DNA of 64,000 nucleotides from Crocinitomicaceae bacterium (GTDB lineage: Bacteria; Bacteroidota; Bacteroidia; Flavobacteriales_D; Crocinitomicaceae). Numbering within the stretch: position 1 is the stretch's first letter; each line of letters begins with the position of its first letter. Both the position numbers and the translations under genes were made by a program. The stretch spans positions 1 to 64,000 of the forward strand of contig JAHEIL010000004.1 in assembly GCA_024639405.1 (NCBI GenBank). Direction: 5' to 3'. Below are positions 57,415-63,774 of the stretch, one piece after another. The notes below the pieces were generated by a model. That model saw only the letters and a list, made by a program, of their open reading frames with translations, was not told the DNA's origin and made no database searches.

Positions 57415-57711
57415 ATGGCAGCAAACATCATCACTAGCGAAGATCTAGAGCAATTCAAATGGGAATTCTTAGAACTAATCAAAGGACACATTGATCAACG
57501 ACTTGGGAAAGTAAAACCAGAAATCGAAGACAGACAGTGGTTAAAATCCCATCAAGTGCAACGCATGCTGGGTATTTCCCCAGGCACTTTGCAAACATTG
57601 CGCATCAATGGGACGATTCCTTACACCAAAGTTGGCGGAATTATCTTCTATGACAAGAAAGACATTCAGCAAATCATGGAGAAAAACATGAAGAACAAAC
57701 GGAATTACTAA
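57415..57711 (+). CDS. Helix-turn-helix protein (HTH_17, excisionase-like)
   Basis: The 98 residues have a helical N-terminus (EDLEQFKWEFLELIKGHIDQRLGK). A MerR/excisionase-type domain follows, with WLKSHQVQRMLGISPGTLQTLRINGTIPYTKVGGIIFYDKKDIQQIMEKN. Such proteins stand next to mobilisation and excision genes of Bacteroidota integrative elements. It is probably an excision or transcription factor. The 32-bp repeats upstream are possible binding sites. A second similar gene follows after 9 bases. Confidence 0.88.
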   Translation: MAANIITSEDLEQFKWEFLELIKGHIDQRLGKVKPEIEDRQWLKSHQVQRMLGISPGTLQTLRINGTIPYTKVGGIIFYDKKDIQQIMEKNMKNKRNY

Positions 57712-57720
57712 TCAAATAAA

Positions 57721-58017
57721 ATGCGCAACATGAAAAAATCAGTTCAACAAATGCAACAAATTCTTGAGGAAATGAAGACAATCAAAAAAAACCTTATTCC
57801 TCAAGAACCTGTCAAAGAAATTTGGATCGGTGGTATTGAAGTACAAACAACACTTTTCATTTCTGAAAGAACCTTATATCGTCACCGCAAATCAGGAAGC
57901 CTGCCCTACAGTCGCGTTCGAGGAAAAATCTATTACAAAAAATCCGATATCCGCGATTTGCTTGAGAAGAACTACCGCACCGAGCAACCAAAATGCACGT
58001 GCTGCAGCAATAAATAA
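57721..58017 (+). CDS. Second helix-turn-helix protein (HTH_17)
   Basis: The 98 residues share the layout of the previous protein: helices at the start (VQQMQQILEEMKTIKKNL), then WIGGIEVQTTLFISERTLYRHRKSGSLPYSRVRGKIYYKKSDIRDLLEKN. The C-terminus CTCCSNK is cysteine-rich. The pair looks like diverged tandem paralogues. Whether they form a heterodimer is not known. Both belong to the element backbone. Confidence 0.88.
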   Translation: MRNMKKSVQQMQQILEEMKTIKKNLIPQEPVKEIWIGGIEVQTTLFISERTLYRHRKSGSLPYSRVRGKIYYKKSDIRDLLEKNYRTEQPKCTCCSNK

Positions 58018-58122
58018 TTAAATCAAGAATCAATGACGATACTCACAATCATCACCCTTTGGTTTCGGAAGAGAATCAAAGATCGAAAAAACAAAAACTA
58101 AAATCCATTAAATCGGTTACCC

Positions 58123-58944
58123 ATGCAAGTTAATTACATAAAACATTTGGAAAGCATCCATTCAAAGTTTATTGAGGATAATCGAATTAACCCATTCCAT
58201 ATCAGTTTATACATGGCTTTATTCCACCTATGGAATTCGGCCATGTTTCCTGAACAATTAAGCATCGCCCGAACAGAAGTCATGCTGTTTTCAAAAATAG
58301 GTTCCGTCAATACCTATACGAAATGTTTGAAACAGTTACATGCTTTCGGTTACATCGAATACCTGCCTTCCAAAAATCCATACGTAGGAAGTTTGATTAA
58401 CATGTACAGAAGTGATAATAGTTCAAGTAATAGTAGTGATCATAGTATGTGTCTCAAAACTGATAATAGTTGTGATAATACAAGTGAAATACACATGAGA
58501 CCTTATATAAACTATTTAAACAATAATAAACAATTAAACAATATAAACTATTTAGGTGTCGATTTAAAAAAAATCGACCAACCAACAATTTCAAAAAGTA
58601 AAGATGAATTTTCTTCTTCTGATGAAAAAGTAATGAAAGTTGCAAAGAATGAAAATCCAGTTGAAAAACCAAAAAAGACAAAACCAATTGTTGCTTTGCC
58701 AACCATGGATCAAGTCACTGCTTTTTTTCAAGAAAAAAATAGATCGGAATTGGAAGCGCAAAAATTCTTCAATCATTTTGAATCCAATGGATGGCTTGTT
58801 GGTGGAAAAGCAAAAATGAAAAATTGGCATGCAGCAGCGCGCAATTGGATCTTGAATTCCGACAAATTTCAAAGCGGAATACAACAAAAAAAGCCCGGTG
58901 ATATTGCAGTCAATCAAAACAAAGATTACAGTGTACCCCTCTAA
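58123..58944 (+). CDS. Element replication-type protein with winged-helix N-terminus
   Basis: The 273 residues begin with KHLESIHSKFIEDNRINPFHISLYMALFHLWNSAMFPEQLSIARTEVMLFSKIGSVNTYTKCLKQLHAFGYIEYLPS, a winged-helix pattern used by replication and element proteins. A low-complexity, Ser/Asn/Lys-rich linker follows. The C-terminal FFNHFESNGWLVGGKAKMKNWHAAARNWI is shared with DnaD-like primosome proteins. It is followed by a DnaC-like loader gene, a typical initiator-loader pair. The function in replication is inferred. Confidence 0.75.
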   Translation: MQVNYIKHLESIHSKFIEDNRINPFHISLYMALFHLWNSAMFPEQLSIARTEVMLFSKIGSVNTYTKCLKQLHAFGYIEYLPSKNPYVGSLINMYRSDNSSSNSSDHSMCLKTDNSCDNTSEIHMRPYINYLNNNKQLNNINYLGVDLKKIDQPTISKSKDEFSSSDEKVMKVAKNENPVEKPKKTKPIVALPTMDQVTAFFQEKNRSELEAQKFFNHFESNGWLVGGKAKMKNWHAAARNWILNSDKFQSGIQQKKPGDIAVNQNKDYSVPL

Positions 58945-59071
58945 TCTTCAATCTTCAATCTTTAATCTTCATCCCGACGCTTCGGGATTCAATCTTGTAA
59001 TCTTCAATCTTCAATCTTCAATCTTCAATCTTTAATCTTTAATCTTCAATCTTCAATCTTCAATCTTCAAA
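58943..59071 (+). repeat. Heptamer tandem repeat AATCTTC, about 15 units, with inserted hairpin
   Basis: Units of AATCTTC (a few ending in T or G) run between the initiator-like and loader-like genes: four before and eleven after a hairpin ATCCCGA/TCGGGAT (58971-58988). They may be iterons, or simply slippage-expanded intergenic DNA. Confidence 0.85.
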
Positions 59072-59080
59072 TCCTGTGTT

Positions 59081-59707
59081 ATGTTAGAAAAATGTTATAC
59101 CCTAGTCGATGGTTATCGACAATTCGACTTCCTCACCTGTGTGCGCTACCTCAATCATCTGGGAAGGAAACAATACGGATCATCATTTTCCATAAACCCT
59201 GACGATCGTTTTATTCTCCACAAACTCATTTCCTATGCGATTGGTTCTGAAGAGCGGTGCCAGGAACATGGAATTGACCTTTCGAAAGGAATCTTGCTGA
59301 CGGGTCCAGTTGGTTGTGGGAAAACATCATTAATGACCTTGTTAAACGCATTCATATATCCAGATCAGAAGTATCAGGTGAAAAATACACGGCAAATTGC
59401 ATCCGAATTTCACAAGGAAGGTTTTGAAGTAATCCACAAATACGGTATGCGTGAAAAAGCTTTTTGTCTCGACGATTTAGGAATAGAACACACCATCAAA
59501 CATTTTGGCAATGAATGTAACACGATAGGTGAAATTTTACTCCAGCGTTACGAATTACAAGTTAATCAAAGAATCATTACCCATGCAACCACCAATTTGA
59601 ATGCTGATGAATTGGAGGCCATCTATGGAATCCGTGTCCGTTCACGTTTGCGTTCCATGTTCAACCTCATCTCTTTCCCCATTGATACGTGCGACAAACG
59701 CAAATGA
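59081..59707 (+). CDS. DnaC/IstB-like ATPase, helicase-loader type
   Basis: The 208 residues have an N-terminal helical part and an AAA+ fold: Walker A LLTGPVGCGKTSLMTLL, Walker B FCLDDLGIEH, sensor 1 IITHATTNLNADELEAIYG and an arginine-finger segment RVRSRLRSMFNLISFP. DnaC-like proteins load the replicative helicase, and related ones help transposases. The partner upstream is the replication-type protein. There is no transposase nearby, which makes IstB itself unlikely. Confidence 0.88.
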   Translation: MLEKCYTLVDGYRQFDFLTCVRYLNHLGRKQYGSSFSINPDDRFILHKLISYAIGSEERCQEHGIDLSKGILLTGPVGCGKTSLMTLLNAFIYPDQKYQVKNTRQIASEFHKEGFEVIHKYGMREKAFCLDDLGIEHTIKHFGNECNTIGEILLQRYELQVNQRIITHATTNLNADELEAIYGIRVRSRLRSMFNLISFPIDTCDKRK

Positions 59708-59730
59708 TAATCCCATATAATAATCAAAAA

Positions 59731-60384
59731 ATGAAAATAAAACTCACAAAACTCGACACGACAAAAATCGTTCAAGTTCGTTTAAAAGACACCCAATATT
59801 ACCAGGAAGAATTTCCCAAAAAACAAATCGTCATTCACCACACCGTTTCCAATGGCAATGCTAAAAATGTAATTGCATGGTGGGGAAAAACACCTGCTCG
59901 CATTGGTGTTGCTTTCGTTATCGATCGAGAAGGAATCATCCACCAATGTTTCAGTTCCAAACATTGGGCGCATCATTTAGGCATCAAGAGCGCGAAAAAC
60001 AAGCAATTGAATCAACAGTCCATCGGAATAGAATTATGCGCTTGGGGGTCATTAAAACGCAGTGATGTGAAGTCAGGCATCGTCGCGCAATTCACCTCAT
60101 CCACAGGAACTATCATCCCAAACGATGAGGTCATTGCATTAGAAAAAACATTTCGAGGTTCAAAGTACTACCAAAAATACACCGACAAACAGTTGAAAAC
60201 CCTTCAAATACTACTGAACTACCTATGCAAAACCTACAACATTCCAAACACCTACAATTCCGATATGTGGGATTATTCAAGGTCGGCCATAAATGGAAGT
60301 CCTGGAATATTTACCCACGTCAGCTATAGAAAAGATAAAAGCGATTGTTTTCCACAGGAGGAGTTGCTGGAAATCCTTGAGTAA
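59731..60384 (+). CDS. N-acetylmuramoyl-L-alanine amidase
   Basis: From the ATG at 59731, chosen for the A-rich sequence before it, this is 217 residues. An alternative ATG at 59704 overlaps the loader stop codon. Amidase_2 motifs are VIHHTVSNG, GVAFVIDREGIIHQCF, HWAHHLGI and SIGIELCAWG, with zinc-binding histidines in HHT and later. It cuts the bond between muramic acid and the stem peptide. No signal peptide or holin is seen. In integrative elements such an enzyme may open the wall for conjugation or be a phage relic. Confidence 0.85.
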   Translation: MKIKLTKLDTTKIVQVRLKDTQYYQEEFPKKQIVIHHTVSNGNAKNVIAWWGKTPARIGVAFVIDREGIIHQCFSSKHWAHHLGIKSAKNKQLNQQSIGIELCAWGSLKRSDVKSGIVAQFTSSTGTIIPNDEVIALEKTFRGSKYYQKYTDKQLKTLQILLNYLCKTYNIPNTYNSDMWDYSRSAINGSPGIFTHVSYRKDKSDCFPQEELLEILE

Positions 60385-60455: not shown

Positions 60456-61121
60456 TTAATTTTCTGCGTTTAGTTCCTTCTCAAATTCAATCAGGTCTAT
60501 TTGAAGCTGACTTTCATCAATGCTTTTTAGAATTTCAACAAGCTCGTGATGACATTTTTTGTATTTTAGTTTACGTTTACAAAAACAAAAATCATTTCGA
60601 GTAAGAGGAGTATCGTTTAACAAGTGTTTTAAAATCATAACACATTCTTCAACGCTATTGATTTTCAAATCTTCTGCGTAGTACTGTTTAATTCCCTCAA
60701 AGTGATGCTTATACTCACCATTTGCAAACTTACCTTTTTTTTCGAAATAGACTTGATTAACAAAAAAAGGATAAATTTTTTCTCTTGTGAAGGTAAGTAA
60801 ATTGATTCCCCTTGCTTTTAATAACAACATTTTATGAGTTATGTCTAAGCAACAGATACCATGTTCGTCAATATGATGATCTTCTATCCTTTTAATCTTT
60901 TCAGATGTTTCTAATACTATTGGTATACAAAAAGGATATTGAAAGGGCACTATGATTATAATTGAAAACGTATCCCAATAATCACCAACGCTATCACAAA
61001 TATCTATTTCACCAGTAATCAACCAAGCATTATTAGCTTGGTTGATGTTTTTGTGACTTAGTTTTGGAAAAAATTCATTCAAAGATTTGAAATCTTTTTC
61101 AAATAAATTTGTGTTTTTCAT
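60456..61121 (-). CDS. E2-like (ubiquitin-conjugating fold) protein with C-terminal SEC-C zinc motif, Pycsar accessory gene
   Basis: The 221 residues have a UBC-like core: WLITGEIDICDSVGDYWDTFSIIIIVPFQYPFCIPIVLETS, then the block DHHIDEHGICCLDI. This last block parallels the E2 active-site line HPN...GxICLDI; Cys91 (of Cys90-Cys91) would be the catalytic residue. The C-terminus has CxC-x8-CH at Cys179, Cys181, Cys190 and His191, the SEC-C zinc motif. No E1 or JAB gene is adjacent. It is the last gene of the operon, 5 bp after the cyclase gene. E2 enzymes in short type II CBASS act on the signal-making enzyme; a similar role here is inference. Confidence 0.75.
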   Translation of the reverse strand: MKNTNLFEKDFKSLNEFFPKLSHKNINQANNAWLITGEIDICDSVGDYWDTFSIIIIVPFQYPFCIPIVLETSEKIKRIEDHHIDEHGICCLDITHKMLLLKARGINLLTFTREKIYPFFVNQVYFEKKGKFANGEYKHHFEGIKQYYAEDLKINSVEECVMILKHLLNDTPLTRNDFCFCKRKLKYKKCHHELVEILKSIDESQLQIDLIEFEKELNAEN

Positions 61122-61126
61122 ACAAA

Positions 61127-62131
61127 TTAAAAATTGAAATAAGGTTTACTTTTTTCAGCTAAAGGAATTAGATTTTGTGGATTTCTATTGTTGTAAACCA
61201 AATGGTTATGAGTTTTCATTATCAATTTCCCATTGTTGTCCGTTGCAATAATATCAAGCGTTTTTAAAAATTTAAACCATTCAAAATCATATTGAGTATA
61301 TCTAAATCCCTTTTCTGGAATTTGGAAAATATAGCGTTTTTTATGATCTACTAATCTAATGCAAACAGGAGTGAAAAATTGATCTAGTATTAAAGCTTCA
61401 CTTTTTATATTATCACCAATTACGATTCCATTATTATCAGCATAGCTTTGCATTTTGGCAGCTAAACTTGTATGTAGGCTACAAGTCGTAACTTCACTTA
61501 TTTCTCCAATGCCAGCTAATGACCAAATCACATCAGAATCATAACCAAGGTCAATTCCAATTCTAGTGTAAATATTTTCAACACCTTGCTCATTTAAAAG
61601 CTCTTTCAAATCATTCTTCATGAAATATGAAAATAATGCTGCGCTTTGTAAAGCCCTTTCAACGGCTATTTTTTTATTTATATTTTTTCCACCAAAGTAA
61701 ACAAATAAACCATCTCCTTGTAATCGATGAACATATCCACCAAATGCCAAACAAGTATGTATAGCAGCTTTTTGAATAATATTTGAAATTACCATTACAG
61801 TTAGAGGATCATATCTTTTAAAAAGATTTGTTGATCCTTTAATATCTATAAACATAGAAACAATGTAATGGTTTTCAACTCCTTGACTTTCTTTTAAGTC
61901 AGCGAAATCAGGATGAAGTCCAGTGGGTTGATTAAAATTTGGTGTAACCCCATTTTTTAGAGCTAATTCTGTCATTGCTGGCAATAACTGATTGTCTTGA
62001 AATTGGGCTCTAACTTCTTCTAGTAGTATACTTTCATTTAATTCACCTGTTGCGCTGTAGTATCTTTCCTTAGCAACGCCTTTATTCATCACTTGACGAA
62101 TGTTTTCAAAATATGTATTGTACAAATTCAT
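61127..62131 (-). CDS. pycC: Class III nucleotide cyclase of Pycsar type (PycC-like)
   Basis: The 334 residues have the guanylate/adenylate cyclase fold at about 90-250. Metal-binding Asp96 lies in VSMFIDIKGSTNLFKRYDP and Asp140 in HRLQGDGLFVYFG. Pycsar cyclases make cCMP or cUMP when phage infects the cell. Which base is used cannot be read by eye. The neighbouring three-helix membrane protein is the expected effector, 6 bp upstream. The C-terminus ends in PLAEKSKPYFNF, with no glycine for E1/E2-type ligation. The gene might also be an ordinary adenylate cyclase, but context argues for Pycsar. Confidence 0.85.
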   Translation of the reverse strand: MNLYNTYFENIRQVMNKGVAKERYYSATGELNESILLEEVRAQFQDNQLLPAMTELALKNGVTPNFNQPTGLHPDFADLKESQGVENHYIVSMFIDIKGSTNLFKRYDPLTVMVISNIIQKAAIHTCLAFGGYVHRLQGDGLFVYFGGKNINKKIAVERALQSAALFSYFMKNDLKELLNEQGVENIYTRIGIDLGYDSDVIWSLAGIGEISEVTTCSLHTSLAAKMQSYADNNGIVIGDNIKSEALILDQFFTPVCIRLVDHKKRYIFQIPEKGFRYTQYDFEWFKFLKTLDIIATDNNGKLIMKTHNHLVYNNRNPQNLIPLAEKSKPYFNF

Positions 62132-62635: not shown

Positions 62636-62857
62636 CTAACCCTTAATTTTACTCGGATCATTCCCATAACTGTTCTTTTCACGAATCTTCCCATCCCGAC
62701 CATGAATGATCACTTCTGATTTTTGATTCATAGCGATTTTGATCGCTGCATTTTCCGCTTCTTTTTGAGTTGCAGTTACTTTAGTAGCTTTTTCGTTGCC
62801 GGCTACTTTAGCTGCCCATCCTTGTGGGTGCTTAACGACGTGTACATTCTTTCCCAT
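62636..62857 (-). CDS. DUF2188-domain protein
   Basis: The start at 62857 gives 73 residues: MGKNVHVVKHPQGWAAKVAG, then EKATKVTATQKEAENAAIKIAMN and a tail EVIIHGRDGKIREKNSYGNDP. The DUF2188 pattern is clear. The 18 codons upstream in frame are not needed. Its function is unknown. It heads the Pycsar operon with only 3 bp to the effector gene, so it may be a small regulatory or structural partner. Confidence 0.9.
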   Translation of the reverse strand: MGKNVHVVKHPQGWAAKVAGNEKATKVTATQKEAENAAIKIAMNQKSEVIIHGRDGKIREKNSYGNDPSKIKG

Positions 62858-62969
62858 AATTTTGATTTTTAGGAATAAATTCTTTAACTGATCATCTCTC
62901 GTGAAGACCAACCGAACCTGAAGGAAGTATGATTTTTTAGGGAAATTGGAGTAGTTTCAAAAAAGTTCG

Positions 62970-63069: not shown

Positions 63070-63151
63070 GTCAAAGATACATGTAATCTTTTAACAAAAC
63101 AAATTTATTAAAATTTGAAGTGTTCTACAAATAAATTTATCAACATTTTTG

Positions 63152-63180
63152 TTGATAAGTTAATTTTTTACCTATTTTTG
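63152..63180 (+). promoter_or_regulatory. Promoter of the type I restriction locus
   Basis: TTG at 63152-63154 and a TATTTTTG -7 box at 63173-63180 are 18 bases apart. The hsdS ATG is at 63205. Confidence 0.6.
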
Positions 63181-63204
63181 AAGCGCATAACAAATTCAAA
63201 GTGT

Positions 63205-63774
63205 ATGGAAAAAGTATTTGAAAGTATCGCTGAATTTCAATTTGGATATTATGATAAGCCAGTAGATTCAGGTGCTGTGTCCTATATACAAGTTAAAGAT
63301 TTTGATGCTAACAATCAGTTTTCAAATGAAACTAGTGCATTTTTAAATATTGATGAAAAGTCTAGAAAACATCTTTTGAAGGATGGTGATGTGATTTTTG
63401 TGGCAAAAGGATTCAGGAATTTTGCATGGACATATAAAGAATCATTTGGACCTGCAATTGCATCATCAATCTTTTTTGTCATTAAAGTTGATACGTCAAA
63501 AATACTTCCTGAATTTTTGACTTCTTTACTAAATTCTGCGGCATATCAGCAGCAATTTCAGCAGTTAGGCGCTGGTAGTTCTATTCCATCAATTCGAAAA
63601 TCCGAATTAGAAGCAATTAAAATACAAGTTCCTCCATTGGAGCTTCAAAGGAAAACGGTCACAATCAATGAACTCTATTTAAAAGAATTGCAATTGACGA
63701 ACAAAATCATTGATGAAAAACAAAAGTATTACAACAATATTATTAACAAACTAATTACTCAAGTACATGTCTAA
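63205..63774 (+). CDS. hsdS: Half-length type I restriction specificity subunit (HsdS)
   Basis: The start at 63205 gives 189 residues; upstream codons cross the promoter. One target recognition domain (ESIAEFQFGYYDKPVDSG ... LKDGDVIFVAKGFRN) is followed by IPSIRKSELEAIKIQVPPLELQRKTVTINELYLKELQLTNKIIDEKQ, the conserved spacer coiled coil. Normal HsdS has two such units and about 400 residues. A single unit could work as a dimer on a palindromic site. The gene precedes and overlaps hsdM by 8 bp, unlike the usual M-S order. Confidence 0.85.
   Translation: MEKVFESIAEFQFGYYDKPVDSGAVSYIQVKDFDANNQFSNETSAFLNIDEKSRKHLLKDGDVIFVAKGFRNFAWTYKESFGPAIASSIFFVIKVDTSKILPEFLTSLLNSAAYQQQFQQLGAGSSIPSIRKSELEAIKIQVPPLELQRKTVTINELYLKELQLTNKIIDEKQKYYNNIINKLITQVHV

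Follow-up and report, generated by a model that had tools for sequence, protein, structure and literature searches.

What does a stand-alone ubiquitin-conjugating-type (E2) protein act on when it is encoded behind a nucleotide cyclase, with no activating enzyme (E1) at hand? The question is posed by a 64,000-nucleotide (nt) stretch of a Crocinitomicaceae bacterium (assembly GCA_024639405.1, contig JAHEIL010000004.1, positions 1 to 64,000; hereafter the window), in which the genes for PycTM, the pyrimidine cyclase PycC and an E2 follow one another in this order, with gaps of 6 and 5 nt. The locus is a pyrimidine cyclase system for antiphage resistance (Pycsar) with a third gene, the E2. PycC carries the class III catalytic Asp pair and PycTM is the effector; no CD-NTase, the mark of a cyclic oligonucleotide-based antiphage signalling system (CBASS), adjoins the E2, whose neighbour is PycC, and the genome has no SMODS match. 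An initial annotation had the E2 adjoining a cyclase with no E1 nearby, as we found: the only ThiF-family gene of the genome lies on another contig, and neither a ubiquitin-like protein nor an E1 or a JAB peptidase is encoded among the operon and flanking open reading frames (ORFs). We consider it probable that the E2 acts on its own cyclase, its Cys91 processing or conjugating PycC through the C-terminal tail without an E1 and so priming cyclic nucleotide synthesis.

The third gene product is predicted to adopt the E2 fold and carries a SEC-C zinc motif in its C-terminal part (E2-SEC-C). Its frame of 221 aa compares with 127 aa for the longest ORF in 500 shuffles of the local sequence, and the plus strand of 60456-61121 holds many stops. 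The top Pfam match is UEV (E=2.6e-4), and SEC-C is detected at E=0.0066 (16.7 bits against a cut-off of 20.4), both under the gathering score; in one relative SEC-C reaches 37 bits. The PADLOC model PDLC00833 (named E1-E2, 222 aa) aligns through its residues 3-218 with residues 3-219 of the window protein (E=4.1e-78), and PDLC00872, 00865 and 00871 also match, the four spanning E values from 4e-78 to 5e-36. The pairing of E2 and SEC-C, initially described as unusual, is thus that of a standing family, and several PADLOC E2 models cover all or almost all of the window protein. Searched against the PDB, a profile of 14 E2-SEC-C relatives matched UBE2W, UBE2L3 and UBE2A, with the E2 match ending just beyond the Cys91 column, while its zinc segment matched SecA zinc peptides. 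An AlphaFold2 model of the window protein (17 relatives) has a mean predicted local distance difference test (pLDDT) score of 90. Aligned with VIA-align 2 over the Foldseek top chains, this model matches the E2/UEV/UFC1/UBC fold at Z 10-12 overall. The UEV of TSG101 scores Z 12.4 and UFC1 Z 11; for the E2 that partners CdnG of Serratia marcescens (8hsb_B), the alignment spans 131 residues at Z 10.1. The structural matches scarcely reach residues 134-221, the part with the zinc motif.

Relatives of the window E2 were gathered from whole genomes and plasmids, and conservation was counted over 28 of them. Cys91, His83, His139, Tyr148 and Cys179 are invariant (28/28). The other zinc ligands are kept in 26/28 (C181), 27/28 (C190) and 23/28 (H191) relatives; both departures at C181 are a one-residue shift (CPxC), and the relatives without His191 still have at least four Cys in the zinc segment. 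At least four Cys/His occur in this segment in 27/28 relatives, the exception being one row, G781. The residues lie where the initial annotation had placed them (Cys90/Cys91; Cys179, Cys181, Cys190 and His191), and its proposal of a catalytic-type E2 in which both the cysteine and the zinc motif are conserved withstood the alignment of homologues, which had been set beforehand as the refutation test should Cys91 or the zinc ligands prove variable. Other parts of that proposal fell away. Cys90 is a Cys in only 14/28 relatives, for which reason Cys90/Cys91 was rejected as a catalytic pair, and nothing beyond the shared zinc motif favours a SecB-like partner of the zinc tail or a function in protein export. 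Single-protein scans of genome contigs and viral contigs returned no true relatives, just SEC-C motifs of other proteins, and no E2-SEC-C relative was found in phage records. A 14-row alignment of the E2s was too diverse for a pattern search.

The enzymes encoded directly 5' of the E2-SEC-C genes share a short C-terminal tail. These 28 partners comprise 20 CD-NTases, 7 PycCs and 1 MBL-fold protein; 25 of them carry the strict motif [KR]P[WYF]x(1-11)-end and 27 the loose motif, P[WYF] near the end. The corresponding counts are 0/41 and 1/41 for related cyclases without an E2-SEC-C neighbour (Fisher p=8e-16, inflated because the sequences are related and just a guide) and 0/421 and 12/421 for other long ORFs in the same loci. 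Among the sequences examined after the motif was fixed, it was found in 8/8 partners (loose; 7/8 strict) and in 0/25 CD-NTase controls. The tail is therefore associated with an E2-SEC-C neighbour, and a stronger argument than the p-value is its spread over non-homologous folds, namely CD-NTase, class III cyclase and MBL-fold protein. In the AlphaFold2 model of the window PycC, residues 309-325 and 328-334 have pLDDT <50, consistent with a flexible tail. A search with a constructed composite tail peptide gave nothing useful.

The MBL-fold partner comes from the Runella slithyformis plasmid pRUNSL03 (L018:3917-6365), where a protein with a KPW tail, an E2-SEC-C and a 236-aa membrane protein without a family match are encoded in this order. 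A charged linker bears its tail, which is missing from two MBL paralogues encoded in that locus. The three genes may constitute a defence system under E2 control that has not been described before and that uses a third kind of enzyme. Chain A of PDB entry 9woo, a CD-NTase, is nearly identical to a Vibrio gigantis plasmid CD-NTase with a KPWFKQ tail and an E2-SEC-C neighbour (L119:2253-3443); as the structure of a tail-bearing CD-NTase has been deposited, others may know of the tail.

Within PycCs, the tail stands where other members carry a domain. PycCs without an E2 are longer (418-486 aa); AGS_C, named a sensor domain in Pfam, was found in both of those scanned against Pfam, and most of the others end in similar sequence. 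The E2-linked PycCs form a single clade (100/99), have no AGS_C and end in the tail instead, which thus replaces AGS_C. In two further loci (L044:6270-8303 and L046:6352-8321), the gene behind PycTM and PycC encodes a shorter E2 that lacks SEC-C. Their PycCs fall in the same clade as the E2-SEC-C-linked ones and also lack AGS_C, and PADLOC E2 models match these second-class E2s, as does, weakly, the Serratia E2 8hsb_B (E=0.015). Here the PycC tails, HHEKHRFHYGK and IPKHNFHYDPFK (FHY type), resemble the Serratia SmCdnG tail, ..VPKNTFYG, and similar tails end the CD-NTases beside the second E2 class (VIPNHTFHGKI in L102, VPASSGFYGEEKKI in L114 and LPHKNYGGN in L096). In these sequences, E2 class and cyclase tail change together. 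We lean, with some caution, towards a wider reading, in which a portable tag, [KR]-P-[WYF]-x(n), would mark unrelated folds (CD-NTases, Pycsar cyclases and an MBL-fold protein) as substrates of one E1-independent E2-SEC-C; a second E2 class would go with a tag of its own (P-x3-4-F-[YH]-G-like), and a change of tag would have moved immune cyclases from one E2 class to the other.

The PycTM-PycC-E2 order also occurs in six other Bacteroidota loci, in five genomes and on one Chryseobacterium plasmid. In the tree, the seven E2s group together (94/89), surrounded by E2s that stand behind CD-NTases with patatin, NucC, TIR-STING or Cap15-type effectors. The closest solved structure to the window PycC is EaPycC from Elizabethkingia anophelis, a cytidylate cyclase (8jsf; WP_049037095.1; Z 31.8, 50% identity), in which D102/D146 are catalytic and F100/R142/Q144 recognise CTP (PMC11224242). 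F94, D96, R136, Q138 and D140 of the window PycC occupy the places aligned to these residues, and the catalytic pair D96 and D140 is present in all 8 aligned sequences. Since the residues aligned to those of CTP recognition are kept, cyclic CMP (cCMP) is the likely product.

In the mechanism that we propose, the E2 would recognise the flexible PycC tail (...AEKS-KPYFNF) as its substrate, the KP[WYF] element serving as the signal and the SEC-C zinc motif most likely helping to recognise the tail or the acceptor. The initial annotation had suggested that the zinc tail may replace the missing E1 or contribute substrate recognition, which comes near the mechanism proposed here. Without an E1, Cys91 would either attack a peptide bond of the tail or capture the C-terminus of the cyclase as a thioester in some other way, and the cyclase would be handed to a lysine, possibly of another cyclase. 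Such priming would activate the cyclase rather than inhibit it, raising the output of cyclic nucleotide (probably cCMP) on infection, and the cyclic nucleotide would switch on PycTM. The same E2-SEC-C family would serve CD-NTases bearing the same tail in E2-only CBASS, so that the tail would behave as a portable tag. The proposal is made by analogy: the Serratia E2, in work of Yan et al. from 2024, reportedly processes the C-terminus of its cGAS, which is loaded on the E2 cysteine and then transferred to a lysine. Cap2 links the synthase C-terminus to targets (PMC10097602), and for E2-only CBASS a mechanism of cyclase-cyclase conjugation has been put forward, as cited in PMC11153139.

Several observations weigh against this mechanism. 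Association alone is no proof of E2 action on the tail; the relatedness noted above makes the Fisher test a guide, and on supported branches of the CD-NTase tree 5 independent pairs (4 concordant, 0 discordant, 1 tied) give p=0.125, which is not significant. In one partner, G448 (NPRQYSNK), the motif is absent. The window tail ends in ..FNF, not in Gly/Ala as in Cap2 substrates. The HPN motif of canonical E2/UBC enzymes is reduced to its His (H83; the window reads HIDEHGICC), and some of the top structural matches are non-catalytic UEVs, binders of proline motifs, with which docking instead of catalysis would fit. The window protein could then be a reader and not an enzyme, its UEV-like domain binding the KP[WYF] tail as the TSG101 UEV binds PTAP and scaffolding or inhibiting the cyclase until infection. 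That the tail is a short proline motif, that the UEV of TSG101/Vps23 ranks high in the structural comparison (Z up to 12.4) and that UEV heads the Pfam matches speak for such a reader, but Cys91, His83 and His139 are invariant, needlessly so for a pure binder, and PMC11153139 cites a functioning E2-only CBASS; we regard this explanation as unlikely.

The E2 might instead borrow the housekeeping E1, the single ThiF-family protein encoded on the other contig, and attach a conventional ubiquitin-like protein to targets of the phage or the host, with the cyclase tail serving for docking only. The E2 fold, the catalytic Cys and the presence of the ThiF-family gene would allow this, but such genes are near-universal (12/14 control genomes), no ubiquitin-like gene was seen in the operon, the genome contains no Prok-JAB and the tail goes with the E2 across phyla, which makes it very improbable. 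Another reading assigns infection sensing to SEC-C, which would bind nucleic acid or a phage protein and tell the tail-tied E2 when to act, AGS_C having been lost from E2-linked PycCs as sensing moved. It draws on the conserved zinc ligands and on the presence of AGS_C in the tested E2-less PycCs but not in E2-linked ones; the second E2 class, however, is without SEC-C, and the PycCs linked to it have no AGS_C either, so the swap does not depend on SEC-C. We judge a sensing SEC-C improbable, though it is compatible with an E2 that acts on its cyclase.

The features of the locus are collected in Table 1. The DUF2188 gene was not found in the other PycTM-PycC-E2 loci, and its product is therefore probably not a core part of the system. 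A perfect 11-bp inverted repeat (61018-61046), terminator-like on the plus strand, lies within the E2 coding sequence, and an upstream RNA element was considered and dropped, as Rfam gave no match. Beside the operon are type I restriction-modification genes (S, M, S, R; window 63115-63774 (+) and L032:16-9777), forming a defence island. On the other side, window 57415-60384 (+) encodes two helix-turn-helix proteins, a replication-like protein, a DnaC-like ATPase and an amidase, which may be what is left of a mobile element adjoining the operon.

Table 1. Features of the Pycsar-E2 locus in the window.
Feature	Position	Strand	Evidence and remarks
DUF2188 small protein (PADLOC PDC-S16)	62636..62911	-	directly upstream of PycTM, co-directional, 3-nt gap
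PycTM, Pycsar transmembrane effector, 164 aa	62138..62632	-	Pfam PycTM 32.1 bits, over cut-off; PADLOC PDLC00700, PDLC02364
PycC pyrimidine cyclase, 334 aa	61127..62131	-	PADLOC PDLC00767 over whole length, E=1.9e-140; no AGS_C domain
Cyclase C-terminal tail PLAEKSKPYFNF, ends AEKS-KPYFNF	61130..61165	-	predicted tag for recognition/processing by the E2; form [KR]P[WYF]x(1-11)-end
E2-SEC-C protein, 221 aa	60456..61121 (incl. stop)	-	single open frame at these coordinates
Domain layout of E2-SEC-C protein			E2/UBC-fold residues ~1-133, helical linker, SEC-C 175-192, C-terminal helices
Cys91 codon, predicted thioester cysteine	60849..60851	-	invariant in 28/28 relatives
SEC-C zinc motif (Cys179, Cys181, Cys190, His191)	60546..60599	-	Pfam, family profile, conservation
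Putative Bacteroidota-type promoter-like sequence TTTG-N20-TATCTTTG	63072..63103	-	upstream of operon; read by eye

Among known systems, E2-only (type II short) CBASS such as Serratia marcescens CdnG-E2 (PDB 8hsb, 8yjy) likewise places a stand-alone E2 of the same fold beside a second-messenger synthase with a specific C-terminal tail and no E1. The window differs in that its synthase is a Pycsar class III cyclase, its E2 carries SEC-C and its tail is KP[WYF], whereas that of Serratia is of the FYG/FHG type. PADLOC files the E2-SEC-C family as a CBASS-type E2 (PDLC00833, PDLC00872, 00865 and 00871, the same protein family end to end), yet the window member sits in a Pycsar operon. With known Pycsar (PycC and PycTM; EaPycC, 8jsf, a clade E cytidylate cyclase) it shares the effector and the catalytic and CTP-recognition residues, but it adds the E2 gene and has a short E2-linked tail in place of the AGS_C of E2-less PycCs. 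The proposed use of the synthase C-terminus as E2 substrate recalls type II CBASS, where Cap2 (an E1-E2 fusion) works with Cap3; the window, by contrast, has no E1 (ThiF) domain and no JAB peptidase, and its tail does not end in Gly/Ala. Bil and ISG15-like systems hold a ubiquitin-like protein, an E1 and a JAB in the operon, all absent from that of the window. A full-text literature search, whose coverage missed key papers so that an earlier report is possible, brought up neither the KP[WYF] tail nor a Pycsar system with an E2. The pairing of E2 and SEC-C was already known as a family; what stands out is the E2 in Pycsar and the shared tail.

These findings would extend ubiquitin-type conjugation in bacterial nucleotide immunity, so far tied to CBASS synthases, to a Pycsar cyclase of unrelated fold. 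The tail would provide a sequence rule predicting which proteins the E2 handles, making the question of the lone E2 without an E1 testable, and it could explain the absence of the AGS_C sensor domain from one PycC lineage. The Runella MBL-fold locus hints at further E2-controlled systems. If the tag is indeed portable, E2 control would be a general module of bacterial nucleotide signalling and not of CBASS alone.
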